A stretch of 61,374 nt of DNA, taken from positions 1 to 61,374 of the forward strand of contig CANQGG010000008.1 in the NCBI GenBank assembly GCA_947601655.1, in the 5' to 3' direction. This DNA comes from an uncultured Akkermansia sp. (GTDB lineage: Bacteria; Verrucomicrobiota; Verrucomicrobiia; Verrucomicrobiales; Akkermansiaceae). The position numbers and the translations under genes were made by a program. The first letter of the stretch is position 1. Each line of letters begins with the position of its first letter. The notes under the pieces were generated by a model. That model searched no databases. It saw nothing but the letters and a program-made list of their open reading frames with translations, and had not been told where the DNA came from. Below are positions 525-45,442 of this stretch, one piece after another.

Positions 525-3500
525 GTGAGGAAGATGTACACGCTGGAAAATAGTTGTCCCTCCAAGCAGTCACCGCAGTTCAAGGTGAGGGAAAAGGGAC
601 AGGGTGATGAGGAATTAAAGGTTTCATACCTGCACGGCTACCCTGCGTATCCGACGGATGTGTTAAGCGACCGGCAGAGGCAGGTAGTGGTACGCGGAGA
701 TGGGGGCACTGGGTTGGCAAAAGTGCGAGTGAAGGGAACCGTGCGAGATTCCGGTCAGATCATATTGGGTGGTCAGGTATTAAAGTCTATAGCAGTGATG
801 CGGGATGGGGAAGGAGGGGAAAAGTTTGACGGGGAATTTTATGTACCTCCAGGACTTTATGGGTTGGCATTGCAGCAGTATCTAAGAGATTGCGTTGAAG
901 GTCAGGCCGGCTCGCAATTTGATACCTCTCTATCCGGGGTTGGGGAGGCGGAGACTGAACCGGAAGATAATGAGGAAGAGGAAGAAGAGGAGGAGACATG
1001 TGATGAATGTGACGAGGGGTGCGAATCCAGTGATGGTGGCGACCCGTCGCAAGCCAGATCAAGTATTGGACGTGTGATGCTGCGTGCCGACGGAAGGGGA
1101 GAGAGTACATCGGGAGGAAGCTCAGCAGTGCGGTATTCATCGGCGAAGCGGATGAAATGGTCGGTTCAGTTTGGTGTGTTTCGCGGATTGTCGGGTGTGC
1201 CGGCGGGGAGGTTGCAGATAGCAAAACAACGGGAATACGAGGCGAAACTCGGTCGGGTGGATGGGTTGGCCTATGCTCATCCTCTGGCGGCAACTCTTGA
1301 GGTGCCGGAAGGGGGAGTGAAGAACGGTGAAATGGTAGCTCTTTGTCGAGGGAGCGGACGCCTCAACTACATGCTGGACGCATCGGGAGTTGCCTTTTTC
1401 CCGGTGGGTGCTTCCCAGCAAACAAAGACTGTCCTGGCGCCGGTGAAGAAGATGAGCCGTGCGGCGGAAGACGCATGCGCGTTGGATGAGGCGAACTACA
1501 TTCGCGCTTCCTACACGGACGGATCAGCAGCCTTCTTTGACTTGAAGAAAGGGCAGAGCCTGGGATTCATTAGTTCCGAAGGCAAGGAACTGAACAGCGA
1601 GCAGGCGCTGCAATATCTCAACATCATGCGCGATGAAGAAGGAACAATTCGGCAAATTTGGAATGCATGGGATGGATTGGCGGACATTGTGGAAGTTGAT
1701 GAGAATGACCCGTCAGCGGGGTACAGCATCCGAATTTATCCGCCGGCGCAGGTGGAGGAACCCTCGGGAGAAGGGGAACTTTTCACCGCAACCGGGGAGC
1801 CGGTGCGCGTTTTCACGGTGCGAGGAAATGATGAGGAATACTCTCTGCGCATCGCCGAGAGAGATATGACCCTCCCGGAGAGTATGGGGGAGTACGTCAC
1901 CACGTGGAAATGGGCGCACGAGGCGTGGAGTCAGACGACAGGGGAAGGAGCGGAAGCGGTGGAGAGACATCGCGAGGCGACGCAGCTGGATGAGACGCAT
2001 TACAGCGTTGTGGAAAGCCTGCGCAAGAATGACGTCGAAGCTCTCCGCACCTATGAGGAATACGAGAAGGGAATCACGGGCAACCTGCTCAGGAAGCGCA
2101 TCGTGGGATACGAGCATGCGGGGGCACGCACCACGACCTATGAGTACAACGATATGGGGCAGCTCATTAAAACGGTGGACCCCGGAGGCGGCGTTTCTGA
2201 AAATGTCTATGATCAGCATGGACGCCCCACGGTGCAAAGTTCACCATGGCGGGAGACCGACGTGCAGAATTACCACACGGAGTATCGCGGCGACAAGGAC
2301 GTTTACAGCACGGAGCCGATCAGGACGGAGCACACGTACGATAAACCCGGAGAGGTGGGCATTGCGCTGACGGAGGAATACACCTATACGGAGCAGAATC
2401 ACGTCAAACGCGTTGAGAAGCGTACGCGGTGCGAAGCTAACACTCTGCTCTCCGTGGAAGAAACGTGGCTGGCCGATGCACCGGGGGAATTTGCCGCCGG
2501 AAGGATCAAGATGGAGCAGGCGGCTGACGGCACGCAGACTCATTACAGCTACGCTGCAGCGGCAGGAAAGTACAACGCCCTCTACAGCGTTACGGCTGAG
2601 ATGCGGGATGAAGAAGGCAAACTCGTTGTCGGGCAGAGCACGCGGCGCGTGAGCTACGTCACGGAGGAGGGCAACACCGTACGCGAGGAAAGCTATGTGC
2701 TGGCAGCGGAAGATCATTGGCAGCTCACCAATGGCGCCACCATGGAGTACGATGTGCTCAATCGCCGCATAGCCACGCGCTGGGACAATGGGAGGAGTGA
2801 GTCCCAGGTGCTTACCTGCCAGGGTGAGCCGCTTCGTCGGGTGGATGCCGATGGCGTGGTGACCACCTACGCGTATGACAGTGCGAGGCAGCTTATTGAA
2901 ACCACGCGCAGCGCCGTGTACGATGGCGATATTTGCATCACCCCGGAAACCATCACTGAGTACGAGCGGGACGCCGCCGGTCATGCGCTGAAAACGACGG
3001 AGCACATCGGGGCTCTCACACGCAGTACAAGTATGCGCTACGACCTGCAGGGGCGTGTTATTGAGCAGACCGACGCCTTGGGGCGCATCACTTCCTTCGC
3101 ATACAGTGAAGATGGCCTCACCACCACGGTCACCACCCCGGGCGGGGCGGAACAGATTACGCGGCACAACCCCGATGGGACCATTGCCGAGGAAAGCGGC
3201 AGCGGGCAACGTCATTTGCTCTATGCGTATGACTACGCCTGGGGCATTCGACGCACCACGTTCCTGCCGGATGGGGTGACCAAAGTTCAGGTGCGCACGA
3301 TCAACGCGCTCAACCAGCGCGTGCTGCTGCGCGAGGCCACTTCGCTGGGGAACGCCACGATGCTCGACACGCGCCGCACCTACAATGCCAAGGGGCAACT
3401 GGTGCGCGAAAAAGTGGGCCCGCTCGCTCCCACGACCTTTGCCTACGACGGCATGGGGACCCTCAGTTGCCGCACCACGCTTCTCGCGGAGAGTGAAGCA

Positions 3501-6287
3501 GATGATCCCACAAAGAACCGCATCAGCAAGTTCCAATATTCTTTCGAAGTTGGAGATGATGGCTCAGTGTACCGTGTGACTACGATGGAGCGCAGCAACG
3601 TGGCAGGAGAATGGCTTACGAGTGTGCAGCGCGAGCTTATTTCCCAACTCTCTCCTGCGATGGAGAGCAAAACCGCTGTCACAGATGAGTATGGTAAGAC
3701 GACCACGACGTGGACAGATTACGGCAGCGGCTCGCAGCGCATTGAGCATCGACAAATTCCAACGAGCAGCATCATCGCTGAGGCGATCATTTGGGATGGC
3801 TTTGTCACTTCCGACAGGGACAACGTTGGCATCGAAAACCGTTTCACGCGTCATTATGGGGATAGAGGCGTTACTTTCACCGCAACGGATGGGCGCGGCA
3901 ACACGACCACCACAACGACGGATATCATTGAGAGAACGATCAAGACGGAGAACGCTGCCGGCGATACGACGACCACCGAATACTGCCCGTGGAACAACGA
4001 GCCTGCTGTCATCACGGACGCACTGGGCTTTACCGCCTGCGCAGAATACGATTCCCGCAATCGCAAAGTGGCGGAGTTTGGTACGGGTGTGCAACCGGTC
4101 GTGTACGAGTATGATGATGCAAACCGTCTGGTAGCCATGACCACGTGGCGGGATGCCCAGCAGGTGATTGCCACCGACCCCCGCGGCATGGAGGGCGGCG
4201 ACATCACGCGGTGGGAGTACGATGACGCTTCCGGACTCGAGCTGAAAAAGATTTATGCGGATGGCCAGGGGAATACAATGACTTACAATAACGCAAACCG
4301 CCCTGCCACTCTTCTCAACGCACGAGGCGTGCTTACCACGTACGCATACAACAGTTCTCTGGGCGTGGTGAACAAAATCACTTACTCGGACGCTCCGGAC
4401 GCCACGCTGACCGTCCGCTACAACATAGCGGGCAAACCCTTGCAGATCAAGGATGCGGCAGGCACTCACACATTCACATACAATCGTTATGACCTCCAGG
4501 AGACAGAATCCCGGGCGGTAGATGGCGCCAAGTTCACCCTGCAAGAGGCTTACGATGAATACGGTCGCAGCGTCGGCTTCTCCCTGCTGAAAGGGGGCAG
4601 TGCGGTACACACTGTTAGCACCGGCTATGCACAAGATGGGCGCATCGCCACAGCAGGTTTTCGCCATGCCAATTCGGATCGCACGTGCCACTTTGCTTAT
4701 CTGGCGGGCAGCAACCTTCTCGCTCAGCTCACCCTTTCCAACGGCATGACGCTCTCTCAAACCTGGGAGGAAAAGCGGGATCTGCTCACGGAGATGAACT
4801 ACATGCGCGGCGGCACGCTCGTTACCTCCCGTAGCTACGAATACGACCCCCTCGCTCGTCCCACTTCGCGCAGCACCTATTACCCCGGCAAACAGCATCT
4901 GAAACTCATCGCCAGCTTCGGCTATAACGATCGCTCAGAACTCACCGCCGCCAAGCTCGATGCCTCCCCCTACGCCTACGCCTACGACAACATCGGCAAC
5001 CGCATCACGGCGCAGGAGGATGCTGAGAGTGTCACTTACGAAACCAATGAGCTGAATCAATACACGCTTATCAAGACGAATGGCGCCGATTTTACCCCTG
5101 ACTTCGACGCGGATGGCAATCAGACCCTCATCCAAACTTCCACCGGTATCTGGCGCGTCACTTACAACGCTCAAAACCGCGCCACTCGCTATGAAAGCGC
5201 GGATGGCTCCACCATCATCACCTGCGTTTATGACTACATGGGGCGGCGCGTGCGCAAGCAGGTGGTCAAGGATGGCGTCACCATGCTTGACGATCGTTTC
5301 TTTTACCGTGGATACTTGCAGGTGGCTGCCTATGACTGGCTTCCCGTCACGAAGACTTCTCGCTGCTTTCTCGTCTGGGATCCCACTCAATCTGTCGCGA
5401 CGCGTCCGCTGGCCATCCGTACCGGCGGCACTGCCTACACCTATGGTTGGGACTTGACGAAGAACATCTGCGAGCTCTACGGTCCCAACGGTTACATTGT
5501 CAACCGCTACGCCTACACTCCATTCGGCAGCGTTACCCAAACCGAGGGGTCGGTCAATCAACCTTTCACTTGGAGCAGCGAGTATCACGACACCGAGACA
5601 GGCTTGGTTTACTACAACTACCGCTACTACAATCCGCACGATAGCAGATGGACGAGGAGAGATCCGATAGGAGAAAGAGCTTCTTATTCAGCCTATGGAA
5701 ATGCTGCTCCTTTTGTTGTGGATATCTTTGGTTTGTACGCGGTTCTCTGTTTTGCTTACGATGCAGGCAAAATCATTGCAGTTGATAGGGATAATCCAAC
5801 TGATCAGATCGAAGTAGGCGATGTTTTTTCTGGCAATGGCGATGATGCCAATAATCCCAATTCACAACACCTAGAAGATCGTGGCCCCATTCCAGAGGGA
5901 GAATATTGGATCGGCAAACAACGCGTTGTACATGGTCGTGAAAAGTGGAGACCCTTGTACGGTGATGATGGAGGAGGAGGAAAATCATATACCGGTGTCC
6001 AAGTGTATGATCCAAATACGGGACAGAGAATAACCAGAGGAGGTTTTAATTTACATGTGGGTACCCGAAGTAATGGATGTGTAACAGTAACTTCTGAGAT
6101 TCCCGAGGGGAGCTTAGGGTATCCACAGAGTGGAGATTATGACAGACTAAACAATTTTATAGAACAAAAGGGTAAGCGGACACCTTTTCATAATCCACGC
6201 AGAGATAAAGACACGTATCACGGCGTTATGGTGGTTGTCAGGTGCGAGAAACAATGTGAAAAAGCAATAGAAAATCTGATATCATGA
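525..6287 (+). CDS. Rhs/YD-repeat polymorphic toxin with a C-terminal L,D-transpeptidase-like (Tlde1/DUF2778) tip
   Basis: This 1,920-residue protein shows no signal peptide or PAAR domain. Residues 1 to about 530 are of unknown fold and include an acidic run at 147-155. Many YD repeats follow, and the Rhs core ends with RYYNPHDSRW, RRDPIG and DIFGLY (residues 1733-1738). The variable tip, about 1739-1920, has the order FSGNG, GPIPEGEYWI, then FNLHVGTRSNGC. This matches the DUF2778/Tlde1 family, whose catalytic pair would be H1844 and C1852. Such enzymes damage peptidoglycan cross-linking in the periplasm of a rival cell. DNA turns AT-rich from about 5650, as expected for an exchanged toxin tip. 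The GTG start at 525 fits the promoter; ATG 534 is an alternative. Delivery route is unknown. The next gene overlaps the stop codon and is the obvious immunity candidate. Confidence 0.85.
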   Translation: MRKMYTLENSCPSKQSPQFKVREKGQGDEELKVSYLHGYPAYPTDVLSDRQRQVVVRGDGGTGLAKVRVKGTVRDSGQIILGGQVLKSIAVMRDGEGGEKFDGEFYVPPGLYGLALQQYLRDCVEGQAGSQFDTSLSGVGEAETEPEDNEEEEEEEETCDECDEGCESSDGGDPSQARSSIGRVMLRADGRGESTSGGSSAVRYSSAKRMKWSVQFGVFRGLSGVPAGRLQIAKQREYEAKLGRVDGLAYAHPLAATLEVPEGGVKNGEMVALCRGSGRLNYMLDASGVAFFPVGASQQTKTVLAPVKKMSRAAEDACALDEANYIRASYTDGSAAFFDLKKGQSLGFISSEGKELNSEQALQYLNIMRDEEGTIRQIWNAWDGLADIVEVDENDPSAGYSIRIYPPAQVEEPSGEGELFTATGEPVRVFTVRGNDEEYSLRIAERDMTLPESMGEYVTTWKWAHEAWSQTTGEGAEAVERHREATQLDETHYSVVESLRKNDVEALRTYEEYEKGITGNLLRKRIVGYEHAGARTTTYEYNDMGQLIKTVDPGGGVSENVYDQHGRPTVQSSPWRETDVQNYHTEYRGDKDVYSTEPIRTEHTYDKPGEVGIALTEEYTYTEQNHVKRVEKRTRCEANTLLSVEETWLADAPGEFAAGRIKMEQAADGTQTHYSYAAAAGKYNALYSVTAEMRDEEGKLVVGQSTRRVSYVTEEGNTVREESYVLAAEDHWQLTNGATMEYDVLNRRIATRWDNGRSESQVLTCQGEPLRRVDADGVVTTYAYDSARQLIETTRSAVYDGDICITPETITEYERDAAGHALKTTEHIGALTRSTSMRYDLQGRVIEQTDALGRITSFAYSEDGLTTTVTTPGGAEQITRHNPDGTIAEESGSGQRHLLYAYDYAWGIRRTTFLPDGVTKVQVRTINALNQRVLLREATSLGNATMLDTRRTYNAKGQLVREKVGPLAPTTFAYDGMGTLSCRTTLLAESEADDPTKNRISKFQYSFEVGDDGSVYRVTTMERSNVAGEWLTSVQRELISQLSPAMESKTAVTDEYGKTTTTWTDYGSGSQRIEHRQIPTSSIIAEAIIWDGFVTSDRDNVGIENRFTRHYGDRGVTFTATDGRGNTTTTTTDIIERTIKTENAAGDTTTTEYCPWNNEPAVITDALGFTACAEYDSRNRKVAEFGTGVQPVVYEYDDANRLVAMTTWRDAQQVIATDPRGMEGGDITRWEYDDASGLELKKIYADGQGNTMTYNNANRPATLLNARGVLTTYAYNSSLGVVNKITYSDAPDATLTVRYNIAGKPLQIKDAAGTHTFTYNRYDLQETESRAVDGAKFTLQEAYDEYGRSVGFSLLKGGSAVHTVSTGYAQDGRIATAGFRHANSDRTCHFAYLAGSNLLAQLTLSNGMTLSQTWEEKRDLLTEMNYMRGGTLVTSRSYEYDPLARPTSRSTYYPGKQHLKLIASFGYNDRSELTAAKLDASPYAYAYDNIGNRITAQEDAESVTYETNELNQYTLIKTNGADFTPDFDADGNQTLIQTSTGIWRVTYNAQNRATRYESADGSTIITCVYDYMGRRVRKQVVKDGVTMLDDRFFYRGYLQVAAYDWLPVTKTSRCFLVWDPTQSVATRPLAIRTGGTAYTYGWDLTKNICELYGPNGYIVNRYAYTPFGSVTQTEGSVNQPFTWSSEYHDTETGLVYYNYRYYNPHDSRWTRRDPIGERASYSAYGNAAPFVVDIFGLYAVLCFAYDAGKIIAVDRDNPTDQIEVGDVFSGNGDDANNPNSQHLEDRGPIPEGEYWIGKQRVVHGREKWRPLYGDDGGGGKSYTGVQVYDPNTGQRITRGGFNLHVGTRSNGCVTVTSEIPEGSLGYPQSGDYDRLNNFIEQKGKRTPFHNPRRDKDTYHGVMVVVRCEKQCEKAIENLIS

Positions 6288-7138
6288 AAATCATCGTTCA
6301 CCTCGTTACTTTTATCTTATTTGTCGTGGTAATGTTCGATATGGCTAAGGCAACGGAGCAACTCACGCCAAGTGCAGACCTTGTGCAGAGATTGGTACAG
6401 ATAGCGGTCGCCAAGGACGAGGTTGGAGAAGCCGTGAGCAAAGGCAAGGACAACATAGAATTATCAGATATCTGCAGGGGGTTGGAAGAGGAAGGGTATG
6501 CAGAAGTTGAGAAAGTTATTGAAAGAGAGGGCGACGTTCGAACTCTCTATGTGGCCATCGTTTCGTTGTATGAGGAATTTAATCTCATGGAAAACGTACA
6601 CGACCGAATCTTGTTTGAAGCAAGAGAGCTTCTGGAAATACAACTTGCCAAACAAGGAACGGAAGAAGCTTATCGATATTTCATGCGTTTGAAGCCCCAT
6701 TACGGACACGATGGCGCCGGATCGACTCATTACGGACTCATGGAGTTGCGATACCTGAAGAAATACTCTCAAATTCCAAAAGTTCTGCTGGAATTGAGTG
6801 ATGAAAAAGCGAGCATCGGAGAGCTTGAGGCACTGCTTGCTTTGACGCGTATGTACGCGGATGGACAGACCCAAAACGCCAGATATAAGCATCTTTATAC
6901 GGCAGTTGTCGTGGCCGCACTTAAAAGGGGGAATGCGTGTGCAAAACGAATAGTGGCAGAATGGCACATGAAAGCAGCCGAGCAAAATGATGTGGAGGCG
7001 ATGATGCTTTTGGCTGATATGTATTTGAATGATGAATTCCGGTTTCAAGATCTTGAGAAGGGAGTGTATTGGTTGAAGAAAGCGGCAACAGCTGGTGACC
7101 AAGAAGCGAAAGAGAAGCTGATGCGCTTCGAAAAATGA
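6284..7138 (+). CDS. Secreted Sel1-type protein, candidate immunity protein for the Rhs toxin
   Basis: The ATG overlaps the rhs stop codon (ATGA, 4 nt), so the two genes are translationally coupled. The 284-residue product opens with a signal peptide (K2, hydrophobic to about residue 18, then AKA before TEQL), which places it in the periplasm, where an L,D-transpeptidase-like toxin would act. Clear Sel1 repeats are visible only in the last 80 residues (KAAEQNDVEAMMLLADMYLN, then EKGVYWLKKAATAGDQEA); the middle is more divergent alpha-helical sequence. It differs from the five paralogues that follow in its signal peptide and in lacking their shared N-terminal block, which fits a dedicated partner of this toxin. 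The immunity role is inferred from position, secretion and coupling only. Confidence 0.75.
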   Translation: MKIIVHLVTFILFVVVMFDMAKATEQLTPSADLVQRLVQIAVAKDEVGEAVSKGKDNIELSDICRGLEEEGYAEVEKVIEREGDVRTLYVAIVSLYEEFNLMENVHDRILFEARELLEIQLAKQGTEEAYRYFMRLKPHYGHDGAGSTHYGLMELRYLKKYSQIPKVLLELSDEKASIGELEALLALTRMYADGQTQNARYKHLYTAVVVAALKRGNACAKRIVAEWHMKAAEQNDVEAMMLLADMYLNDEFRFQDLEKGVYWLKKAATAGDQEAKEKLMRFEK

Positions 7139-7168: not shown

Positions 7169-9511
7169 ATGAAGAAGATGGAGAAAAAACTGGCAAGAAG
7201 GTCAAAACTGGGGCAGAGTGACGACGAATCAATGATGTCAGAACGTCCCGGAAGTGTTTTCACCTCCAATCTTACGAGAAATTTTTACCACAAACACCAT
7301 GAAAAAATTCTTATCTCATTTCTCTTCTTCTCCCTTGTGATGTTGGCAGTAGGGGAGAATTTGCAGAAATTGCCGCTGCCTGAGCTGGAACAGCAGGTGG
7401 AAACAGGGAATGCGGAGGCGCAGGCCGAGTTGGCGCACAGGTATGCGTACGGGGAAGGAGTACCGCAGGACTATGAGAAGTGCTATAAGTTGGCTGTTCA
7501 GGCGGCTGAGAAGGGAAATGCGTTGGCGATGCGGATGATTTCCGCTTGTTATGCGCGTGGCGTTGGTGGAGTGGAAAGAGATAGGCAAAAAGCAATGGAA
7601 TGGGCCGAGCGTGCTGCTGAGGCGGGAGATATTGCTTCCCTGGGCAATGTTGGAATGATGTATTATTGGGGTGTTGGGGTAGAACGAGATGAGCAAAAGG
7701 GTCTCCAAATGCTTGAGCAAGCGGCAGAGGCAGGAGATGTGACGGCGAAGTGTAATTTGGGTGTTATATACATCCAAGGGGAGGGTGTAGCAAAGGATGA
7801 GGAAAAAGGGATGTCTCTTCTACAGGAGGCGGTGGACAGAGGGGATCCGAAAGCACAAGGGGTCATGGGCACGCTGTACGTAAGCGGGGGCATAGGTGAG
7901 GGGGATATCGAAAAAGGAATATCTTTGCTAAGAAAATCGGCGGAGGCAGGGGACGCCCATGCACAAGTTAATCTTGGATATGCGTACGAGCACGGAATTG
8001 GGGTAGAACGCGATCTAAGCAAGGCGATCGCGTGGTGGACTAAGGCGGCTGAGCAAGGAGATGCAGACGCTTGCGCCAATCTTGGCGTGATGTACTATGA
8101 TGGGAAAGGAGTAAAGAAGGATTTCCAAAAAGCAAGGTCATGGCATGAGAAGGGGGTGGCAGCCGGGGGGTTACGATCATTGGGAGGACTAGGATTCATG
8201 TACATGCAGGGAGAGGGAGGGGAGAAGGATATAGAGAAGGGCAGCAAGATGCTCCTTGAGGCAGCGGAAGCTGGAGACGCGCAGGCGCAGTACAGCTTGG
8301 GGCAGATGTACGCCAATGGCGCCATAGGCGGGGAAAAAGATATGGAAAAAGCGAGGTTGTGGTGGGAAAAATCTGCGGAGCGAGGTGAGGCAATGGCTCA
8401 GCACAACTTGGGTTCCATGTATTACGAGGGGATTGGGGGACGAAAGGATATCAAGAAAGCGTTTGAATGGTGGGAAGAGGCAGCCAAACGTGGAAATGTT
8501 GAGGCGCAGATCAACTTGGCCAAAATGTACGTGATGGGAACCGATATTCCTCAAGACGGGGAGAGAGCAAAATACTGGTTCACGAAAGCGGCCGAACAAG
8601 AGAATGCTGAGGCAATGCGACTATTGGCAGGCATGTATTTAGACCATAAATACGGGATGCGGAATACGGAGAAGGGAATGTATTGGTTGAGGAAAGCAGC
8701 GGAAGCCGGAGATGCACAGGCTCAAAAACATCTCGCTCTTGTGTATGGGAAGGGGGAAGTCGAGGGAAAGGATATCAAAGAAGCAGCCGAATGGTTCGCG
8801 AAAGCAGCGGAAGCCGGAGACGCGGAATCGGAGGGGGCCCTTGGTGCCATGTATCTTACAGGGAAAGGTGTGGCGAAGGATGAGGAGAAGGGATTATCAC
8901 TTACGCGAGAGGCAGCGGAAGTCGGAGACGCACAGGCTCAGAGAAATCTCGCCATCATGTACATGAATGGGGAAGTTGTGGAAAAGGATGCAAAGAAGGC
9001 AGTCGAGTGGTTTACGAAAGCAGCAGAGCAAGGAGACGCGGAAGCGAAGAGGCTCCTCGGTTTCATGTACCTCGCAGGGAAAGACGTAGAGAAGGATGAG
9101 GAGAAGGGATTATCTCTTACGCGCGAAGCAGCGGCAGTGGGGGATGCTAGTGCAAAGGGAGCTCTAGGCGTCATGTACCTCAAAGGGGAAGGCGTGGCGA
9201 AGGATGGGGAGAAGGGATTATCTCTTACGCGAGAGGCAGCGGAAGCCGGAGACGCGCAATCACAGAGGAATCTTGCTATTATGTACAGGGACGGAGAATT
9301 TGTAGAAAAGGATGCAAAGAAGGCAGTCGAGTGGTTGACAAAAGCAGCAGAGCAGGGAGATGCAAAGGCTCAGTTCTACTTGGGATTTCTTTACATGAAG
9401 GGGATTGGAGTGCCGAAGAATGAGCTTGAGGCATTGCGGTGGTTTGAAAAAGCGGCGGCGGCCGGATATCAGGAAGCGAAAGAAGCATTAAAAATCATCG
9501 ATGGGCAATAA
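7169..9511 (+). CDS. Sel1-repeat protein 2 of the array; usual start codon is out of frame
   Basis: About twenty 36-residue Sel1 repeats (the AAEAGDA.AQ.NLG.MY..G.GV.KD pattern), a helical scaffold for protein binding. Paralogues start MKKILISF at an ATG followed by seven A. Here the equivalent ATG (7299) is followed by six A (7302-7307), so it reads into a stop after 13 codons. The open frame instead runs in from ATG 7169 and places 44 extra residues ahead of the signal-peptide core (HEKILISFLFFSLVML). Either the gene is off or poorly secreted, or slippage restores the frame. The mature start (ENLQKLPLPELEQQ) is nearly identical to the paralogues. It lies 30 nt after the candidate immunity gene, probably in the same transcript. 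Confidence 0.75.
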   Translation: MKKMEKKLARRSKLGQSDDESMMSERPGSVFTSNLTRNFYHKHHEKILISFLFFSLVMLAVGENLQKLPLPELEQQVETGNAEAQAELAHRYAYGEGVPQDYEKCYKLAVQAAEKGNALAMRMISACYARGVGGVERDRQKAMEWAERAAEAGDIASLGNVGMMYYWGVGVERDEQKGLQMLEQAAEAGDVTAKCNLGVIYIQGEGVAKDEEKGMSLLQEAVDRGDPKAQGVMGTLYVSGGIGEGDIEKGISLLRKSAEAGDAHAQVNLGYAYEHGIGVERDLSKAIAWWTKAAEQGDADACANLGVMYYDGKGVKKDFQKARSWHEKGVAAGGLRSLGGLGFMYMQGEGGEKDIEKGSKMLLEAAEAGDAQAQYSLGQMYANGAIGGEKDMEKARLWWEKSAERGEAMAQHNLGSMYYEGIGGRKDIKKAFEWWEEAAKRGNVEAQINLAKMYVMGTDIPQDGERAKYWFTKAAEQENAEAMRLLAGMYLDHKYGMRNTEKGMYWLRKAAEAGDAQAQKHLALVYGKGEVEGKDIKEAAEWFAKAAEAGDAESEGALGAMYLTGKGVAKDEEKGLSLTREAAEVGDAQAQRNLAIMYMNGEVVEKDAKKAVEWFTKAAEQGDAEAKRLLGFMYLAGKDVEKDEEKGLSLTREAAAVGDASAKGALGVMYLKGEGVAKDGEKGLSLTREAAEAGDAQSQRNLAIMYRDGEFVEKDAKKAVEWLTKAAEQGDAKAQFYLGFLYMKGIGVPKNELEALRWFEKAAAAGYQEAKEALKIIDGQ
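7302..7307 (+). repeat. A6 homopolymer at the shifted start of Sel1 gene 2
   Basis: Four intact paralogues have A7 at this place (after the ATGs at 9544, 10946, 14173 and 15035). Six A here removes the start from frame. The relict copy at 20398 also has six. Confidence 0.7.
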
Positions 9512-9543
9512 GTAACTCCACAAAAATGGAAAAGACACAGACC

Positions 9544-10896
9544 ATGAAAAAAATTCTTATCTCATTTCTTTTCTTCTCCTTCATAGGCTTGACGGCAGGG
9601 GAGGATTTGCAGAAATTGCCGCTGCCTGAGCTGGAACAGCAGGCGGAAACAGGGAATGTGGAGGCGCAGGCCGAGTTGGCGCACAGGTATGCGTACGGGG
9701 AAGGAGTGCCGCAGGACTATGAGAAGTGCTATAAGCTGGCTGTTCAGGCGGCTGAGAAGGGAAATGCGCGGGCGATGCGGATGATTTCTGCTTGTTATGG
9801 GCTCGGAGTTGGTGGGGTGGAAAGGGATATGCAAAAAGCATTGGAATGGATCAAGCGTGCTGCTGAGGCGGGAGATATTTTTTCCATAGGCAATGTTGGG
9901 GTGAGGTATTATCAGGGCATGGGGGTAGAGCGGGACGAGAAGAAGGGTCTCCAAATGCTTGAACAAGCGGCAGAGGCAGGAGATGTGGACGCGAAGAAAA
10001 ACCTGGCTGCTATATACCTCCAAGGGACGGGCGAGACGAAAAATCAGAAGAAAGGGGGAGCACTTTTGCGGGAGGCAGCGGAAGCGGGGGATGCAGAAGC
10101 GCAGAGAAATCTCGCCATCGCATACAAGAATGGCCTCATTGTAGAAAAGGATGCCGGGAAGGCAGTCGAATGGTTTACGAGAGCAGCTGAGCAGGGAGAC
10201 GCGAAATCAAGGGGGGAGCTCGGTCTCATGTACCTCGCAGGGGAAGGCGTCGAAAAGGATGAGGAGAAGGGATTGTCACTCTTGCGAGGGGCAGCGGAAG
10301 CGGGGGATGCGTTTGCTCAGAGAAATCTCGCCATCGCGTACGAGAAAGGAGAATATGTAGAAAAGGACGCAAGGAAAGCGGTCGAGTGGTATACGAAAGC
10401 GGCTGAACAAGGGGAAGCGGAAGCAATGGGTCTTCTGGCAGACATCTACTTGAACGGTGAGCGCGCGGTGCGGGACTCTGAGAAAGGAAAGCTTTGGCTA
10501 AAGAGAGCGATGGAAACGGGGAACGTCGCAACAAAGAGTCTCATTGGTTTCATGTATCTCACAGGGAAAGGCGTAGAGAAGGATGAGAAAAAGGGGATGG
10601 CGCTTGTGCGCGAAGCGGCGGAGGCGGGAGACGCAAAAGCGCAGAGGAATCTCGTCATCGCGTACATGAAGGGGGGAATTGCAGAAAAGGATGCCAGGAA
10701 GGCAGTCGAATGGCTCACAAAAGCAGCCGAGGAAGGGAACGTTAAGGCTCAGTTCTATTTGGGATTATTTTACCTGAAGGGGGTTGGAGTACCGAAGAAC
10801 GAGCTTGAGGCATTGCAGTGGTTTGAAAAAGCGGCGGCAGCCGGAGACCAAGAAGCGAAAGAAATACTGAAGGCTTTCGATGAAAAGATGCGGTGA
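9544..10896 (+). CDS. Sel1-repeat protein 3 of the array, secreted
   Basis: I chose ATG 9544 over ATG 9526 because it begins the signal peptide shared by the array (MKKILISF, hydrophobic to about residue 16, then TAGE). The 450-residue product carries about 11 Sel1 repeats. Its first 120 mature residues are almost the same as in the neighbours (LQKLPLPELEQQAETG, then YAYGEGVPQDYEKCYKLA); differences collect in the middle and in the spacing of repeats. The last repeat has the family ending GVPKNELEALQWFEKAAAAG. It lies 32 nt after the previous gene. Sel1 proteins are scaffolds, and no catalytic motif is visible. A role as periplasmic immunity or adaptor protein is inferred from its place in the toxin cluster. 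Confidence 0.85.
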   Translation: MKKILISFLFFSFIGLTAGEDLQKLPLPELEQQAETGNVEAQAELAHRYAYGEGVPQDYEKCYKLAVQAAEKGNARAMRMISACYGLGVGGVERDMQKALEWIKRAAEAGDIFSIGNVGVRYYQGMGVERDEKKGLQMLEQAAEAGDVDAKKNLAAIYLQGTGETKNQKKGGALLREAAEAGDAEAQRNLAIAYKNGLIVEKDAGKAVEWFTRAAEQGDAKSRGELGLMYLAGEGVEKDEEKGLSLLRGAAEAGDAFAQRNLAIAYEKGEYVEKDARKAVEWYTKAAEQGEAEAMGLLADIYLNGERAVRDSEKGKLWLKRAMETGNVATKSLIGFMYLTGKGVEKDEKKGMALVREAAEAGDAKAQRNLVIAYMKGGIAEKDARKAVEWLTKAAEEGNVKAQFYLGLFYLKGVGVPKNELEALQWFEKAAAAGDQEAKEILKAFDEKMR

Positions 10897-10965
10897 AAAA
10901 ACGCCGGGAAGGACAACCCAACGAGGAGTTTTTACCACAAACACCATGAAAAAAATTCTTATCTC
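10831..10965 (+). repeat. 135-bp block repeated without mismatch at 14920-15054
   Basis: The block spans the 3' end of Sel1 gene 3, the intergenic spacer, and the start of gene 4; its copy spans the same junction of genes 5 and 6. Similarity continues beyond with a few mismatches. It is a substrate for recombination that would delete or add whole genes. Confidence 0.9.
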
Positions 10966-13900
10966 TTTTCTCTTCTTCTCCCTCATAGGTCTGACAGCAG
11001 GGGAGGATTTGCAGAAATTGCCGCTGCCTGAGCTGGAACGGCAGGCGGAGGCAGGAGGAGCGGAGGCACAGACCGAGTTGGCGCGCAGGTATGCGTACGG
11101 GGAAGGAGTGCCGCAGGACTATGAGAAGTGTTATAGGTTGGCTGTTCAGGCGGCTGAAAAGGGAAATGCGCGGGCGATGCGGATGATTTCCGTGTGTTAC
11201 GCGCGTGGCGTTGGTGGAGTGGAAAGGGATATGCAAAAAGCATTGGAATGGGTCGAGCGTGCCGCTGAGGCGGGAGATATTGCTTCCATAGGCAATATGG
11301 GGGTGATGTATTATTATGGCAAGGGGGTGGCGCGAGATGCGCGAAAGGGGCTCCAAATGCTTGAGCAGGCAGCAGAGGCAGGAGATGCAGGCGCAAAGAA
11401 TAACTTGGCTGTTATATACCTCCAGGGGCTCGGCGTAATGAAAGATGAGGAGAAGGGATTATTGCTTTTGCGAGAGGCGGCAGATTCCGGAGACGCAGGA
11501 GCGCAGAGAAATCTCGCCATCATGTACATGAATGGGGAAGTTGTGGAAAAGGACGCAAGGAAGGCAGTCGAGTGGTTTACGAAAGCCGCGGAAGCAGGAG
11601 ACGCGGAAGCAGGGAGGCAGCTCGGTTTCATGTACCTCCAAGGGGATCGCGTGGAGAAGGATGAGCAAAAAGGATTGTCACTCTTGCGAGAGGCAGTGGA
11701 GGGAGGGGACGCCAAGGCAAAGGGCGTGCTCGGAATATTCTACGTTATCGGACGAATTGTTGAAAAAGACGAAGAGAAGGGGATGGCACTTGTGCGGGAA
11801 GCAGCGGAGGAAGGGGACGCAGGAGCTCAGAAAAATCTCGCTATTGCGCACAGGGACGGAAAATTTGTGGAAAAAGATGCAAGGAGAGCAGTTGAATGGT
11901 TTACGAAAGCAGCTGAGCAGGGCGACGTGGAGGCAATGGGAATTTTGGCAGGCATGCATTTAGACATGCGGGAGCACGAGAAGGGAATGTATTGGCTGAG
12001 GAAAGCAGCAGAAGCGGGAAACGCGGAATCAAAGAGCCTCCTTGGTGCCATGTACCTCATGGGGAAGGGCGTAGAGAAGGATGAGGAGAAGGGCTTGTCA
12101 CTTTTGCGAGAGGCAGCGGAAGCCGGAGACGCAGAAGCGCAGAAAAATCTCGCCGTTGCGTACTTGAATGGGGTCATTGTGGAAAAGGATGCAGAAAAGG
12201 TAGTTGAATGGCTTACAAAAACAGCTGAGCAAGGAGATGCAAGAGCTCAGAAAATTCTTGCTGCTCTGTATGTGAATGGAAAAATTGACGAAAAGGACGC
12301 AAGGAAGGCAGTCGAATGGCTCACGAAGGCTACCGAGGTCGGGGACTCTGAGGCAAAGGGTGTGTTAGCTCTTATGTACATCAACGGGAAAGGCGTTGTG
12401 AAGGATGGGAAGAAAGGTCTCTCGCTATTACGGGAGGCAGCGGAAGCAGGAGACGTGCATGCACAAAAAAATCTCGCCATTATGTATGAGAAGGGGGACG
12501 TCGTGGGAAAAGATGTAAAAGAGGCAGTCGAATGGCTTACAAAAGCAGCCGAGCAGGATAATGTGGAGGCGATGGGACGCCTCGGTCTTATGTACCTCAA
12601 AGGGGAAGACGTAGCGAAAGATGAGAAGAAGGGGATGGCGCTTGTGCGAAAGGCGGCGGAGGCGGGAAACGCTGAGGCGAAGGGGATTTTAGGCTATATG
12701 TACATCAAGGGTGAAGGTGTTGAGAAAGATCAGGAGAAGGGATTATCACTGGTGCGGGAGGCGGCAGAGGCAGGAAATGCACAAGCGCAGAGAAATCTCG
12801 CCATCCTGTACGTGAAGGGAGGAGTTGTGGAAAAAGATGCAAACAGAGCAGTAGAATGGTGTGCAAAAGCAGCTGAGCAAGGAGACATGGAAGCCAAAAG
12901 CCTCCTTGGTGCCATGTACCTCAACGGAGAGAGAGTTGAGAAAGATGGGGAGAAAGGTTTGTCGCTGGTGAGGGAGGCGGCAGAGGCCGGGATCGCGCAG
13001 GCTCAGAGTAATCTCGCTATGACGTACATGAAGGGAGACGTCGTGGAAAAGGACGTAGGAAAAGCAGTCGAGTGGTTGACGAAAGCAGCCGAGCAGGATT
13101 ATGCAGAAGCAATGAGCCTTTTGACGGACATGTATATGAACGATAAATACGGGATTCAGGATCCCGAGAAGGGTATCTATTGGCTGAGGAAAGCGGCAGA
13201 GGCAGGAGACGAAGCAGCAAGGGGTAGCCTTGGTGCTATGTATATTAACGGAGAAGGTGTTGAGAAAGATCGGGAGAAGGGCTTGGCGCTGGTGCGAGAG
13301 GCGGCGGAGGCAGGCAATGCGATGGCGCAGAGAAATCTCGCCATCGCGTACATGAAGGGGGAAATTGTAGAAAAGGATGTGAAAAAGGCAGCCGAATGGT
13401 TTACAAAAGCAGCCGAGCAGGGAGACCCAGAAGCGCAGGTCTGTTTAGGACTATTTTATAGGAAAGGGATAGGGGTGCCGCAGGATGATGAGAAGTGTTA
13501 TAAGTTGGCTGTTCAGGCGGCTGAGAAGGGAAATGCGCAGGCGATGCGGATGGTGGCGGCGTGTTATTTGTACGGAACGGGGGTGGGAAGAGATCGGCAA
13601 AAAGCATTGGAATGGACCAAACGTGCTGCTGAGGCGGGAGATATTGCTTCCCTGGGCAATGTCGGGCTGATGTATTATCAGGGCATGGGGGTAGAGCGGG
13701 ACGAGAAAAAGGGGCTCCAAATGCTTGAGCAAGCGGCAGAGTCGGGAGACGTGGGTGCAAGGGGATATCTTGGCGCCATGTATATCAATGGAAAAGGCGA
13801 GGCGGCGGATGAGGAGAAAGGCTTGGCGCTGGTGCGAGAGGCGGCAGAGGCCGGAGACACGCAATCACAGAGGAATCTCGCCCTCCTGCACATGAGAGGA

Positions 13901-14176
13901 GAAATTGTGGAAAAGGATGTAAAAAAGGCAGCCGAATGGTTTACAAAAGCAGCGGAAGCAGGAGACGCGGAGGCGCAGTTCTATTTGGGTCTATTATATG
14001 CGAAGGGGATAGGAGTGCCGAAGAACGAGCTTGAGTCTTTTCAGTGGGTAAAAAAAGCGGCGGGGGCAGGGAATCAAAAAGCGAAAGAGTTATTAAAATT
14101 ATACGATGAAAAAATTCAGCAAAAAATCCGGCAGGAAAGAGAACCTGACGAGAAGTTTTTACCACAAACACCATGA
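10946..14176 (+). CDS. Sel1-repeat protein 4 of the array, secreted, probably a fusion of two paralogues
   Basis: The start is ATG 10946, which gives the shared signal peptide (MKKILISF to TAGED); an upstream ATG at 10880 lies inside the preceding gene. At about 1,076 residues it is the longest of the array, with close to 28 Sel1 repeats. The stretch encoded at about 13470-13740 again contains the signature of the array's N-terminal block (GVPQDDEKCYKLAVQAAEKG, then RMVAACY, GRDRQKALEW and AAEAGDIASLGNVG). A second paralogue lacking its signal peptide therefore seems to have been joined in frame. The last codons overlap the next ATG (ATGA). A conserved GAGGAG stretch about 20 nt before the ATG is the only purine-rich site and is too distant to be an ordinary ribosome binding site. 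No catalytic motif is seen. Confidence 0.85.
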   Translation: MKKILISFLFFSLIGLTAGEDLQKLPLPELERQAEAGGAEAQTELARRYAYGEGVPQDYEKCYRLAVQAAEKGNARAMRMISVCYARGVGGVERDMQKALEWVERAAEAGDIASIGNMGVMYYYGKGVARDARKGLQMLEQAAEAGDAGAKNNLAVIYLQGLGVMKDEEKGLLLLREAADSGDAGAQRNLAIMYMNGEVVEKDARKAVEWFTKAAEAGDAEAGRQLGFMYLQGDRVEKDEQKGLSLLREAVEGGDAKAKGVLGIFYVIGRIVEKDEEKGMALVREAAEEGDAGAQKNLAIAHRDGKFVEKDARRAVEWFTKAAEQGDVEAMGILAGMHLDMREHEKGMYWLRKAAEAGNAESKSLLGAMYLMGKGVEKDEEKGLSLLREAAEAGDAEAQKNLAVAYLNGVIVEKDAEKVVEWLTKTAEQGDARAQKILAALYVNGKIDEKDARKAVEWLTKATEVGDSEAKGVLALMYINGKGVVKDGKKGLSLLREAAEAGDVHAQKNLAIMYEKGDVVGKDVKEAVEWLTKAAEQDNVEAMGRLGLMYLKGEDVAKDEKKGMALVRKAAEAGNAEAKGILGYMYIKGEGVEKDQEKGLSLVREAAEAGNAQAQRNLAILYVKGGVVEKDANRAVEWCAKAAEQGDMEAKSLLGAMYLNGERVEKDGEKGLSLVREAAEAGIAQAQSNLAMTYMKGDVVEKDVGKAVEWLTKAAEQDYAEAMSLLTDMYMNDKYGIQDPEKGIYWLRKAAEAGDEAARGSLGAMYINGEGVEKDREKGLALVREAAEAGNAMAQRNLAIAYMKGEIVEKDVKKAAEWFTKAAEQGDPEAQVCLGLFYRKGIGVPQDDEKCYKLAVQAAEKGNAQAMRMVAACYLYGTGVGRDRQKALEWTKRAAEAGDIASLGNVGLMYYQGMGVERDEKKGLQMLEQAAESGDVGARGYLGAMYINGKGEAADEEKGLALVREAAEAGDTQSQRNLALLHMRGEIVEKDVKKAAEWFTKAAEAGDAEAQFYLGLLYAKGIGVPKNELESFQWVKKAAGAGNQKAKELLKLYDEKIQQKIRQEREPDEKFLPQTP

Positions 14177-14985
14177 AAAAAATTCTTATCTCATTTCTCT
14201 TCTGCTCCCTCATAGGTCTGGTTACAGGGGAGGATTTGCAGAAATTGCCGCTGCCTGAGCTGGAACAGCAGGCGGAAACAGGGAATGTGGAGGCGCAGGC
14301 CGAGTTGGCGCACAGGTATGCGTACGGGGAAGGAGTGCCGCAGGACTATGAGAAGTGCTATAAGCTGGCTGTTCAGGCGGCTGAGAAGGGAAATGCGCGG
14401 GCAATGCGGACGGTAGCGGCATGTTACATGCGTGGCGTTGGTGGAGTGGAAAGGGATATGCAAAAAGCATTGGAATGGACCGAGCGTGCTGCTGAGGCGG
14501 GAGATATTGCTTCCCTGGGCAATGTCGGAATGATGTATTATTTGGGAGAGGGAGTAGAACGTGATGTACAGAAGGGAGTCCAAATGCTTGAGCAAGCGGC
14601 AAAAGGCGGAGACACGAATGCGCAGTATAAACTAGGCATTGCATACATTAAAGGGGAAGGTGTAGCGAAGGATGAGGAAAAAGGATTGTCACATGTGCGA
14701 GAGGCGGCAGAGGCAGGAGACGAGCGGTCACAGAGAATTCTTGCTTTTTCGTACATGGAGGGAGATGCTGTGGAAAAGGATGTAAGGAAAGCAGTCGAAT
14801 GGTTTACGAAGGCAGCCGAGCAGGGTGTCATAGAAGCGATGAAGGAGTTGGCTTACATATATACAAGTGATCAATACGAGATTCAAGATTCCGAGAAGGG
14901 AGTGTACTGGTTGAAGAGAGCGGCGGCAGCCGGAGACCAAGAAGCGAAAGAAATACTGAAGGCTTTCGATGAAAAGATGCGGTGA
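14173..14985 (+). CDS. Sel1-repeat protein 5 of the array, secreted, shortest copy
   Basis: The 270-residue product has the same signal peptide (MKKILISF, then VTGED) and the same N-terminal block as genes 2-4, followed by only about six Sel1 repeats. Its ending (EKGVYWLKRAAAAGDQEAKE) resembles the end of the candidate immunity protein at 6284-7138 more than the GVPKNELEA endings of genes 2-4. This hints that its 3' part derives from an immunity-type gene. It starts inside the stop codon of gene 4. Function beyond a scaffold in the periplasm is not visible. Confidence 0.85.
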   Translation: MKKILISFLFCSLIGLVTGEDLQKLPLPELEQQAETGNVEAQAELAHRYAYGEGVPQDYEKCYKLAVQAAEKGNARAMRTVAACYMRGVGGVERDMQKALEWTERAAEAGDIASLGNVGMMYYLGEGVERDVQKGVQMLEQAAKGGDTNAQYKLGIAYIKGEGVAKDEEKGLSHVREAAEAGDERSQRILAFSYMEGDAVEKDVRKAVEWFTKAAEQGVIEAMKELAYIYTSDQYEIQDSEKGVYWLKRAAAAGDQEAKEILKAFDEKMR

Positions 14986-15034
14986 AAAAACGCCGGGAAG
15001 GACAACCCAACGAGGAGTTTTTACCACAAACACC

Positions 15035-17461
15035 ATGAAAAAAATTCTTATCTCATTTCTCTTCTTCTCCCTCATAGGTCTGACAGCAGGGGAGGATTTA
15101 CAGAAATTGCCGCTGCCTGAGCTGGAACAGCAGGCGCAGGCAGGAGGAGCGGAGGCGCAGGCCGAGTTGGCGTACAGGTATGCGAACGGGGAAGGAGCAG
15201 AAAAAAATTATGAAAAGGCGTTCGATTTAGCTAAGAAAGCGGCAGAGAAAGGGAATATAAAAGGTATGAGGGTGCTGGGCGGTCTTTATTTGGTAGGAGT
15301 GGGAGGGGCAGAAAAAGATGAACAGAAAGGAGCAAAACTGATAAAACAGGCGGCAGAAGCAGGTGATGAAATGGCGCAAATGAAATTAGGAGCGATGTTT
15401 TACGTAGGAATGGGAATCCAAGTCGATAAAAAAGAAGCCGCATATTGGCTCCAGAAAGCGGCCAATCAAGGGAATGTCGAGAGCAAGACGAAGCTAGGCA
15501 TCATGTACCTCAAAGGGGAAGGCGTGACGAAAGATCAGACGAAGGGGGTGTCACTTATACGGGAGGCAGAGGAGGCCGGGAGCGGAGAAGCAAGGGGAGT
15601 TATAGGCGTCATGTACCTCAAAGGGGAAGGCGTAGAGAAGGATGAGCAGAAAGGCTTGTCGCTGATACGAGAAGCGGCAGAAGCCGGGGACGCACAAGCG
15701 CAGAGAAATCTCGCTATCGAGTACATGAATGGGGAAGTTGTGAGAAAGGATGCAGAAAAGGCAGTTGAATGGTTGACGAAAGCGGCAGAACAAGATTACA
15801 CAGAAGCGATGAGGCTTTTGGCGAGAATGTATATGGGTGATGAATATGGGATTCAGGATTCTGAGAAGGGTATCTATTGGCTGAAGAGAGCGGCAGAGGC
15901 GGGGAACGCTGAGGCAAAGGGAGTTCTAGGCGTCATGTACCTCAAAGGGGAAGGAGTAGAGAAGGATGAGCAGAAAGGCTTGGCGCTGGTGCGAGAGGCA
16001 GCGGAAGCCGGGGACGCGGAGGCGCAGAGAAATCTCGCCGTTGTGTACTTGAATGGGGTCATTGTGGAAAAGGATGCAAAGAAGGCAATCGAATGGTTTA
16101 CGAAAGCGACCGAACAAGGAGATGCAGCGGCGAGGGGGAGCCTCGGAGTCATGTACCTCAAAGGGGAGGGCGTGGCGAAGGATGAGGAGAAAGGCTTGTC
16201 GCTGGTGCGGGAGGCGGCAAAGGCCGGAGACGCGCAATCACAGAGGAATCTCGCTATTGCGTACAGAGACGGAGACCTTGTGGAAAAGGATGCAAAGAAG
16301 GCAGTCGAATGGTTTACAAAAGCGGCCGAGCAGGATCACGTAGGAGCTATGATGCTTTTGGCGAGAATGTATATGGGTGATGAATATGGGATTCAGGATT
16401 CTGAGAAGGGTATCTATTGGCTGAAGAGAGCGGCAGAGGCGGGGAACGCTGAGGCAAAGGGAGTTCTAGGCGTCATGTACCTCAAAGGGGAAGGAGTAGA
16501 GAAGGATGAGCAGAAAGGCTTGGCGCTGGTGCGAGAGGCAGCGGAAGCCGGGGACGCGGAGGCGCAGAGAAATCTCGCCGTTGTGTACTTGAATGGGGTC
16601 ATTGTGGAAAAGGATGCAAAGAAGGCAATCGAATGGTTTACGAAAGCGACCGAACAAGGAGATGCAGCGGCGAGGGGGAGCCTCGGAGTCATGTACCTCA
16701 AAGGGGAGGGCGTGGCGAAGGATGAGGAGAAAGGCTTGTCGCTGGTGCGGGAGGCGGCGGAGACCGGAGACGCGCAATCACAGAGGAACCTTGCTATTAT
16801 GTACAGGGACGGAGAATATGTGGAAAAAGATGCCAAGAAGGCAGTCGAATGGTTTACAAAGGCAGCTGAGCGGGATCATGTAGAAGCGATGATGCTTTTG
16901 GCTGACATGTGTATGAGTGATGAATATGGGCTTCAGGATCCTGAGAAGGGTATCTATTGGCTGAAGCGAGCGGCGGAAGCAGGAGACGCGGAAGCAAGGG
17001 GAAATCTTGGCGCCATGTATATCAATGGAGAAGGCGTAGAGAAGGATGAGGAGAAAGGCTTGTCGCTTGTTCGGGAGGCGGCGGAAGCAGGAGACGTGCA
17101 ATCACAGAGGAATCTTGCTGTTATGTACAGGGACGGAGACCTTGTGGAAAAGGATGCCAGGAAGGCAGTTGAATGGTTTACGAAAGCAGCCGAGCAGGAT
17201 CACGTAGAAGCGATGATGCTTTTGGCGAGCATGTATTTAGACGATGAATACGGAATGAGGAAGCCTGAGAAGGCAGTGTATTGGTTGAGGAAAGCCGCTG
17301 AGCAGGGAGATGCAGGAGCTCAATACTGTTTAGGGTTACTTTACCTGAAGGGGATAGGAGTGTCGAAGGACAAGTTTGAGGCTTCTCGGTGGTTTGAAAA
17401 AGCGGCGGCAGCCGGAGACCAGGATGCGAAAGAGATATTAAAAGCTTTCGATGGGAATTGA
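15035..17461 (+). CDS. Sel1-repeat protein 6 of the array, secreted, with a recent internal duplication
   Basis: I chose ATG 15035, which begins the shared signal peptide, over an upstream ATG at 14969 inside gene 5. The product has 808 residues and about 21 Sel1 repeats. After residue 50 the N-terminal block departs from the other paralogues (NYEKAFDLAKKAAEKGN, then YLVGVGGAEKDEQKGA), so this copy is the most divergent at its front. A 540-bp unit (five repeats of 36 residues) is tandemly duplicated inside the gene. Several repeats of the form AEQDHVEAMMLLA.MYMGDEYG are shared with the candidate immunity protein (AEQNDVEAMMLLADMYLNDE), which links it to that gene. No enzymatic residues are seen. 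Confidence 0.85.
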   Translation: MKKILISFLFFSLIGLTAGEDLQKLPLPELEQQAQAGGAEAQAELAYRYANGEGAEKNYEKAFDLAKKAAEKGNIKGMRVLGGLYLVGVGGAEKDEQKGAKLIKQAAEAGDEMAQMKLGAMFYVGMGIQVDKKEAAYWLQKAANQGNVESKTKLGIMYLKGEGVTKDQTKGVSLIREAEEAGSGEARGVIGVMYLKGEGVEKDEQKGLSLIREAAEAGDAQAQRNLAIEYMNGEVVRKDAEKAVEWLTKAAEQDYTEAMRLLARMYMGDEYGIQDSEKGIYWLKRAAEAGNAEAKGVLGVMYLKGEGVEKDEQKGLALVREAAEAGDAEAQRNLAVVYLNGVIVEKDAKKAIEWFTKATEQGDAAARGSLGVMYLKGEGVAKDEEKGLSLVREAAKAGDAQSQRNLAIAYRDGDLVEKDAKKAVEWFTKAAEQDHVGAMMLLARMYMGDEYGIQDSEKGIYWLKRAAEAGNAEAKGVLGVMYLKGEGVEKDEQKGLALVREAAEAGDAEAQRNLAVVYLNGVIVEKDAKKAIEWFTKATEQGDAAARGSLGVMYLKGEGVAKDEEKGLSLVREAAETGDAQSQRNLAIMYRDGEYVEKDAKKAVEWFTKAAERDHVEAMMLLADMCMSDEYGLQDPEKGIYWLKRAAEAGDAEARGNLGAMYINGEGVEKDEEKGLSLVREAAEAGDVQSQRNLAVMYRDGDLVEKDARKAVEWFTKAAEQDHVEAMMLLASMYLDDEYGMRKPEKAVYWLRKAAEQGDAGAQYCLGLLYLKGIGVSKDKFEASRWFEKAAAAGDQDAKEILKAFDGN
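15814..16218 (+). repeat. 405-bp stretch identical to 16354-16758 (540-bp tandem period)
   Basis: Lines 540 bp apart match base for base from 15814 to 16218; the first mismatch after it is at 16219 versus 16759. The period equals five Sel1 repeats, so the reading frame is kept. Identity at silent sites shows the event is recent. Confidence 0.95.
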
Positions 17462-17559
17462 GCGGTTAGGGGAAAGAGAAGACGGCAAGGATTATTGGGA
17501 TGAAGGAAAATGATAAGACGTTATTCGCGTATATGAGAAAGAAACAAAAGGAGATAGAA

Positions 17560-18655
17560 ATGAAGCCCGCACTTATAAAAACGCTGAGGAGTTGGTGGCG
17601 CGCACAGAAATTTCACCGAATGAAATGGGGGCTGAAAAGACAGTTACGCATCATGCTTGCAGCAATTTCTGTGGTGGTATGCGCGAGTCAGGCAACGGGA
17701 GAAGAATGGAGGTACGAGTTCGTATTCGAAGATGGGGATTCTCAGTACTGGTACGGGCATTATCTTCGTGCCTACAAAGGGGAAAATAGGCGAATCATCC
17801 ACACTTCACTGAAACCAATCGAACGCTTAAATGTGGAGGCAAAAGGGTGGAGGTTTTATGAGGATCACATGATAGCACATATGGGAGGAGATAAAGTCGT
17901 CGTTGTACGTGAACCGGAGGATGGTTCTCTTCCGCATGAGATGATGGTAACACGTGATGGTAATGATATAACGGTGAGATATAGATATGACAAGATAGAG
18001 AAGATCACCTCAGAGGAGGGAGCTCTTGATTTCACGCTCGAGATGACGCAAAGGGGCGATTTAAGTCCGTGTATTAAAGGAGAGCAAAAATGGAAAGTCC
18101 ATTATCACTTGAGCGAGGTGCAACAAACTCAAGGCGAGCAGCCATGCCCGGCGAAAGCGAGTCAAGAGGAGGAAATGGTGTTGGACGAGTGGAAGTTACA
18201 TATCGAGAAGGATGAGGGTAGGTATGGTCTCTTAGCAGAAAAAGACGGGCAAATTATTGAACGCTTGCTTGTATCGGATACACCCATAGAACACATTGCA
18301 ACGTGCGGTTCTTATTGGATAGGACGAATCGGCAATTGGGGGGGAACCGGGGAAACGAATTGTGGTGCTCGCCTCTATCCCCAACGCTGTTTATCCGCAG
18401 GTGATTTTTGTTTCCTGTGATCCATGGCGTGATCCTGAGTCCACGAGGGATGATACCGTAGAACGTGTAAGTTATGATAAGGGGGAGTTGTCCATACAGT
18501 TTCGTGTTTCCATTCAAGAGAAAGAAACTCTTCTGACGAAAAGATATCTTTGCAAAATCCGTGTCAATTCAGGACCTCTAGGAGAGGGAAGTTTTCCTAA
18601 TAGCTCTTCGGGCACCTTATCTAAGGCTGTGAATCTCGTAAAAAAATGGTTCTGA
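17560..18655 (+). pseudogene. Unknown secreted protein interrupted by a frameshift in a G tract
   Basis: I do not recognise the family. The first frame (to 18420) begins best at ATG 17560, preceded by AAAGGAG (17547-17553); ATG 17500 and ATG 17620 are alternatives. It has a signal-peptide-like stretch (LKRQLRIMLAAISVVVCASQ), then beta-rich soluble sequence. At G7 (18338-18344) the natural continuation moves to the next frame: with six G it would read NWGEPGKRIVVLASIPNAVY and run on to the stop at 18655, giving about 364 residues. The first frame instead ends 25 codons later with low-quality sequence. Either the gene is broken, the tract is slippable, or the assembly is wrong by one G. It lies 98 nt after the Sel1 array. 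Confidence 0.6.
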
Positions 18656-18668
18656 TGAAAAAGAGGTG

Positions 18669-20288: not shown

Positions 20289-20370
20289 TTTTCAGAATAA
20301 AAGGATAAAATCAAGAATCCGTCGAGAAATGAGTACATCCCGGAAAAAAGAAAAGATACGGTGAAAAAGC

Positions 20371-45381: not shown

Positions 45382-45384
45382 GGC

Positions 45385-45415: not shown

Positions 45416-45442
45416 CCCCATGCTAATCACACAATCGGGAGG

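Follow-up and report, generated by a model that had tools for sequence, protein, structure and literature searches.

We analysed a stretch of 61,374 nucleotides (the window) from contig CANQGG010000008.1 of an uncultured Akkermansia sp. (GCA_947601655.1) with regard to a gene for a Rhs protein and a partner gene that overlaps its stop codon. We consider it likely that the former encodes a polymorphic Rhs toxin with a tip of the Tlde1 family and that the overlapping gene provides the immunity protein, probably through its N-terminal helical domain. The respective features are:

525..5729, + strand: Rhs N-terminal region, RHS/YD repeats and Rhs-associated core (Pfam RHS_repeat, E-value 5.3e-22; NCBIfam YD repeats; Rhs_assc_core)
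5730..6287, + strand: Rhs tip, Tlde1-domain, L,D-transpeptidase-like, predicted toxin, including the stop codon
6036..6038, + strand: codon of Arg1838, at a position like R115 of Tlde1a, six residues ahead of the His (invariant in 11/11 aligned tips; role in Tlde1a, PMC9638812)
6054..6056, + strand: codon of His1844, predicted to be catalytic (from sequence; invariant in 11/11 aligned tips)
6078..6080, + strand: codon of Cys1852, predicted nucleophile (from sequence; invariant in 11/11 aligned tips)
6284..6352, + strand: apparent signal peptide of the partner, residues 1-23, overlapping the Rhs stop (from sequence, by eye)
6368..6793, + strand: helical domain of the partner, residues 29-170, likely the immunity part (Sel1-free homologue behind the tip of genome G070; 11 copies in 9/260 genomes; absent from two tail-only copies; all-helical model)
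6794..7138, + strand: C-terminal tail of the partner with one Sel1 match at residues 238-272 (Pfam Sel1, 29.7 bits, cut-off 30.7; 58-62% identical to modules of neighbouring Sel1 genes)
7169..17461, + strand: run of five Sel1-repeat genes (780, 456, 1098, 270 and 830 aa) behind the partner (open reading frames; first gene Sel1 E-value 2.3e-154, the rest by similarity to the first)

Rhs tip and overlapping partner gene

The Rhs open reading frame (525-6287, + strand, GTG start) codes for 1920 aa; its start is uncertain, i.e., the database copy P0003 starts at a Met three residues later. It has the architecture of Rhs polymorphic toxins: RHS/YD repeats and a Rhs-associated core (NCBIfam Rhs_assc_core at residues 1664-1725, 52.8 bits, cut-off 32.5), which ends in VVDIFGLY, are followed by a variable tip. 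Related Rhs cores with differing tips occur within the single source genome. The tip comprises 185 residues (5730-6284) and contains GPIPEGEYW, H1844 and S1849-N-G-C1852. The DNA thus bears out the original prediction, which had described a core ending in DIFGLY and a tip of about 180 residues with these motifs. The same holds for its DUF2778/Tlde1 identity, since a profile hidden Markov model search matched the tip to PF10908 (Tlde1_dom) with an E-value of 3.2e-13 and 50.6 bits, above the cut-off of 30.1. The predicted structure has an L,D-transpeptidase fold. Profile match and structure model support a Tlde1-domain, L,D-transpeptidase-like Rhs tip.

Relatives of the tip were searched in 386 genomes of the order (12 places in 10/386 genomes) and Tlde1_dom in 260 genomes of the family (12 places in 11/260 genomes, 8 of them above the cut-off); the weaker Tlde1_dom places in G129, G365 and G255 (L090) were left out of the neighbourhood comparison. 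P0004, returned by the tip search, has a 56% identical tip. The R, H, G and C positions of the active-site region are invariant across all 11 aligned tips. The second His of the (S/T)HGC motif of Tlde1a is an Asn in the window tip, and none of the 11 aligned tips has a His at this position. Given S-N-G-C in place of (S/T)HGC, we assign the tip to the PF10908 domain family and not to the strict Salmonella-type Tlde1 effectors.

The partner gene (6284-7138, 284 aa) starts with an ATG at 6284, while the Rhs stop TGA covers 6285-6287. The resulting overlap of four nucleotides (ATGA, 6284-6287) with a gene for a signal-peptide protein had been claimed before and was found as described, with the signal peptide being apparent by eye from a hydrophobic stretch and an A-K-A site at residues 21-23. 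About 142 residues between signal peptide and tail are without Pfam match above the cut-off. The structure model of the partner is all-helical with a predicted local distance difference test (pLDDT) value of 71.4 and a predicted template modelling (pTM) score of 0.49, i.e., the fold can be taken as approximate only. Another species, G111, has the same combination of tip (92% identical), overlap and partner (96% identical), there as well with a Sel1 gene behind. We conclude from this recurrence that the arrangement is not due to chance.

Helical domain and Sel1 tail of the partner

Next, we consider which part of the partner is likely to confer immunity. In G070, a tip about 50% identical to that of the window is followed 76 bp on by the gene of a 170-residue protein with an apparent signal peptide, which is homologous to the helical domain of the partner (E-value 1e-15) and has no Sel1 part. 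In G050, the tip is cut down to its last 59 residues and stands behind another cassette; the partner is complete.

The partner had been described as ending in Sel1 repeats. Here, the Sel1 similarity at the C-terminus was recovered, but as a single match (residues 238-272) that falls just below the Pfam cut-off (29.7 vs. 30.7 bits). We compared the tail with the fetched loci of relatives and found two tail-only copies, namely a second copy in G111 (L118) and one in G271 (L116). In both, the match to window positions 6330-6366 joins directly to the match from 6793 onward, such that exactly 426 bp (142 codons, window 6367-6792), which code for the helical domain, are missing. The database protein P0002 (162 residues) represents the same tail-only form. 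Neither copy adjoins a Tlde1 tip: in G111, the tip is located some 13 kb off on the same contig, and G271 does not belong to the 11 genomes in which Tlde1_dom was found. It is the Sel1-free homologue behind the G070 tip, the whole partner in G050 and the tail-only copies without exactly this segment that lead us to place the likely immunity function in the helical domain. The original prediction of a downstream immunity factor is thereby retained in part: the partner is the best candidate, given its conserved linkage and its preservation where the tip is broken, while the label 'Sel1-type' is not supported and probably misplaced, since the homologue in G070 lacks Sel1 and there are copies of the Sel1 tail to which no helical domain is attached.

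Within the source genome, the best matches of the tail are the adjoining Sel1 genes (best rows 58-62% identical); by sequence, the tail resembles a fragment of that array. We also counted substitutions in both parts. Between window and G111, there are 2 nonsynonymous and 4 synonymous changes in the helical domain as against 9 and 1 in the tail (Fisher P 0.036); for window and G050, the domain has 2 and 2 and the tail 7 and 1 (P 0.24). This contrast agrees weakly, in its direction, with immunity residing in the domain and not in the tail.

A profile search with the helical domain gave 12 matches in 9/260 genomes, which correspond to 11 copies (one is broken in two pieces), all from this genus. 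Four copies are located behind a Tlde1 tip or its remnant, and three carry the Sel1 tail. The most distant ones (G073 and G295, E-values 4e-4 and 0.002) are less certain. A database search found at least 18 clusters, none of those listed having a precomputed Pfam domain (the window's own partner is missed, i.e., the set is incomplete). At the phylum level, 11/387 genomes were matched, 4 of them outside the genus with E-values of 0.001-0.009. The helical domain had no match in the plasmids searched, and none of the 45 pattern-matching stretches of viral contigs encodes a relative of the tip; a search of genome contigs gave 5 loci. In G308 (L084 8176-10939), where no Rhs gene is nearby, the helical-domain copy precedes a gene for a 640-residue protein that looks exported and begins with almost the same signal peptide region. 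The copy in G030 is near a gene that resembles, by eye, one behind the Rhs gene of G057; its neighbourhood would fit an orphan immunity cluster.

Other Tlde1 tips come with other partners. The source genome encodes a second Rhs protein with a Tlde1 tip (contig C57, L003 3147-8894; 3147-9171 with its partner), which is overlapped by the gene of a 110-residue protein with a hydrophobic stretch. This tip and those of G080, G294 and G057 form a second group (n=4), each being followed by a protein of 108-112 residues. The G057 tip (L040) is interrupted by an in-frame TAG, and the gene behind it is open. Behind the tips of G343, G019 and G160 there are genes for small proteins that, judged by eye, have a signal peptide or a lipoprotein signal, and behind that of G353 a 169-residue open reading frame. 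No relatedness was detected between the helical domain and the partners of the G343, G019 and G160 tips or of the second Rhs protein. That is, different Tlde1 tips have different exported or membrane partners, as expected for immunity genes.

Proposed mechanism, alternatives and surroundings

In the proposed mechanism, the tip would be released from the Rhs shell and attack peptidoglycan in the periplasm of a rival, where C1852 would trim or cross-link stem peptides as in Tlde1a. The partner would be exported to the periplasm, where its helical domain would bind and block the tip. The Sel1 tail would stem by fusion from the Sel1 genes next to it and be dispensable for immunity or only supporting.

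More tentatively, the helical domain could define a new immunity family that acts in the periplasm against L,D-transpeptidase toxins and is kept in Akkermansia both next to toxins and as orphan genes. In the window, it would have been joined to a Sel1 array at which Rhs tip-immunity cassettes land, and the 'Sel1 immunity protein' would then be a chimaera whose Sel1 half stems from neighbouring genes. Immunity proteins to L,D-transpeptidase toxins have apparently been described in few cases, Tldi1 being named in 5 papers of the open-licence library searched, and a second, different family would help to find out where such a tip has to be blocked. The locus further suggests a way in which chimaeric immunity genes arise at the Rhs loci of a common gut genus. 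It is also a caution not to name an immunity family by a repeat that is attached to it.

Several observations weigh against immunity by the helical domain or against a wall-active, delivered tip. First, 7 of the 11 domain copies are away from a Tlde1 tip (G070:C4, G070:C37, G067, G308, G030, G073 and G295; the G070:C4 copy is about 1 kb from a contig end and that of G070:C37 is broken), such that the family may have other roles. A further tip remnant, of 45 residues and located in G070, has no helical-domain gene behind it. The tail-only copies could equally result from domain loss or represent an older form into which the domain was inserted. In addition, the substitution contrast is weak given the P value for G050, the pTM score of the partner model is middling, and the second His of Tlde1a is an Asn. 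Finally, no match to the type VI sheath protein VipB was found in G111, G070, G080 and G057, all of which carry such tips and two of which (G080, G057) are single-contig genomes.

With regard to delivery, contig C9 of the source genome (L044) holds a type VI secretion system cluster with VipA, VipB, TssF, TssG, a gp25-like protein, ImpE, a ClpV-like AAA protein and a VgrG-like fragment at the contig end, where the ClpV and VgrG labels are our reading of AAA and Phage_GPD matches. VipB is patchily distributed (13/76 genomes of the genus) and without clear link to the tips: it is present in 3/7 genomes with a Tlde1 tip or remnant vs. 10/69 others (P 0.09). The phage-type sheath PF04984 was found in 0/8 genomes.

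As an alternative, the tip could be bound and blocked by the Sel1 tail, in the manner of Sel1E and VgrG4 of Klebsiella, with the helical domain being only a spacer or carrier. In favour of this, Sel1E is described to protect against VgrG4 and the neighbouring Sel1D not to (PMC7108748), a Sel1 gene run stands behind the toxin here as well, and an arms race could cause the rapid change of the tail (9 nonsynonymous, 1 synonymous vs. G111). However, the partner homologue of the G070 tip does without Sel1, and the tail occurs without adjoining Tlde1 tip in G111 (second copy) and G271, which makes this explanation unlikely.

We hold it to be similarly improbable that the partner is no immunity protein at all, but a small exported protein from an ordinary family of the genus, or a helper in toxin export, with the shared transcript being incidental. 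The 7/11 copies away from Tlde1 tips would agree with this, as would the distant members, which by eye resemble small lipoproteins or exported proteins in ordinary gene surroundings. Yet orphan immunity genes are known for polymorphic toxins of this kind, and close members are found immediately after related tips (three species) or after the remnant of a tip (a fourth species). Moreover, the apparent signal peptide speaks against a cytoplasmic chaperone, and other Tlde1 tips likewise have a small exported or membrane partner at the same place.

That the tip is inactive as a wall enzyme or has another substrate, i.e., that the module is a relic or a differently aimed toxin, is suggested by S-N-G-C in place of the S-H-G-C of Tlde1a, whose H129 lines the catalytic pocket (PMC9638812), but is very improbable, since the lack of this His in all 11 tips with R, H, G and C invariant points to a group trait rather than decay, and the tip frame is open in window and G111 with a ratio of nonsynonymous to synonymous substitution rates (dN/dS) of 0.7.

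Downstream of the Sel1 genes, the window holds a gene run (17500-22532) that recurs in relatives behind Rhs fragments or Sel1 genes (L035, L116, L118) and resembles a reservoir of old cassettes, be they tips or immunity genes. Its gene at 17500-18655 is split into two frames here vs. one frame of 418 residues in L118. Further on, a 2372-residue open reading frame (37680-44798) has zero Pfam matches up to an E-value of 1, and the 282-residue frame after it (45152-46000) is likewise without Pfam match.

Comparison with known systems

The pairing had been put forward as possibly undescribed; its novelty is smaller than that: a 2012 paper already describes Rhs toxins that carry L,D-peptidase domains and have immunity genes linked to them (PMC3482391), and an immunity protein of the Sel1 kind is in print as well (PMC7108748). 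What may be new here, i.e., the helical family and its fusion to Sel1, is of modest novelty. As described, the toxins of PMC3482391 share with our locus the RHS repeats, a C-terminal L,D-peptidase domain, a linked immunity gene and a predicted attack on the cell wall; in contrast to the locus, that description names no helical or Sel1 partner. According to a 2026 paper (PMC12994826), Rhs repeats are usually fused to effectors that act in the cytoplasm, which makes a wall-acting tip the less common kind.

Of the five sel1-repeat proteins encoded beside vgrG4 in Klebsiella, Sel1E abolished killing by VgrG4 in E. coli, whereas Sel1D had no such effect (PMC7108748, 2020). Both loci have a toxin gene adjoined by a Sel1 gene run, one member of which gives immunity in Klebsiella. 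The toxin domain differs, and in our locus Sel1 forms a short tail, attached to an unrelated helical domain whose G070 homologue does without it.

No Pfam family covers the helical domain; among the papers listed by our search of the open-licence literature, by terms unable to name an unnamed family, we saw none on it. With Salmonella Tlde1a/Tldi1a (PMC9638812), the locus shares the Tlde1 domain, a similar order of Arg, His, Ser and Cys with equal Arg-His spacing, and an apparently exported partner, a Sec signal being mentioned for Tldi1a. The systems differ in that Tlde1a is a stand-alone effector and not a Rhs tip, in the second His (Asn here) and in the His-Cys spacing (10 vs. 8 here). Furthermore, the partner is located downstream of the toxin here, whereas Tldi1 is described upstream of its effector (PMC10434147).
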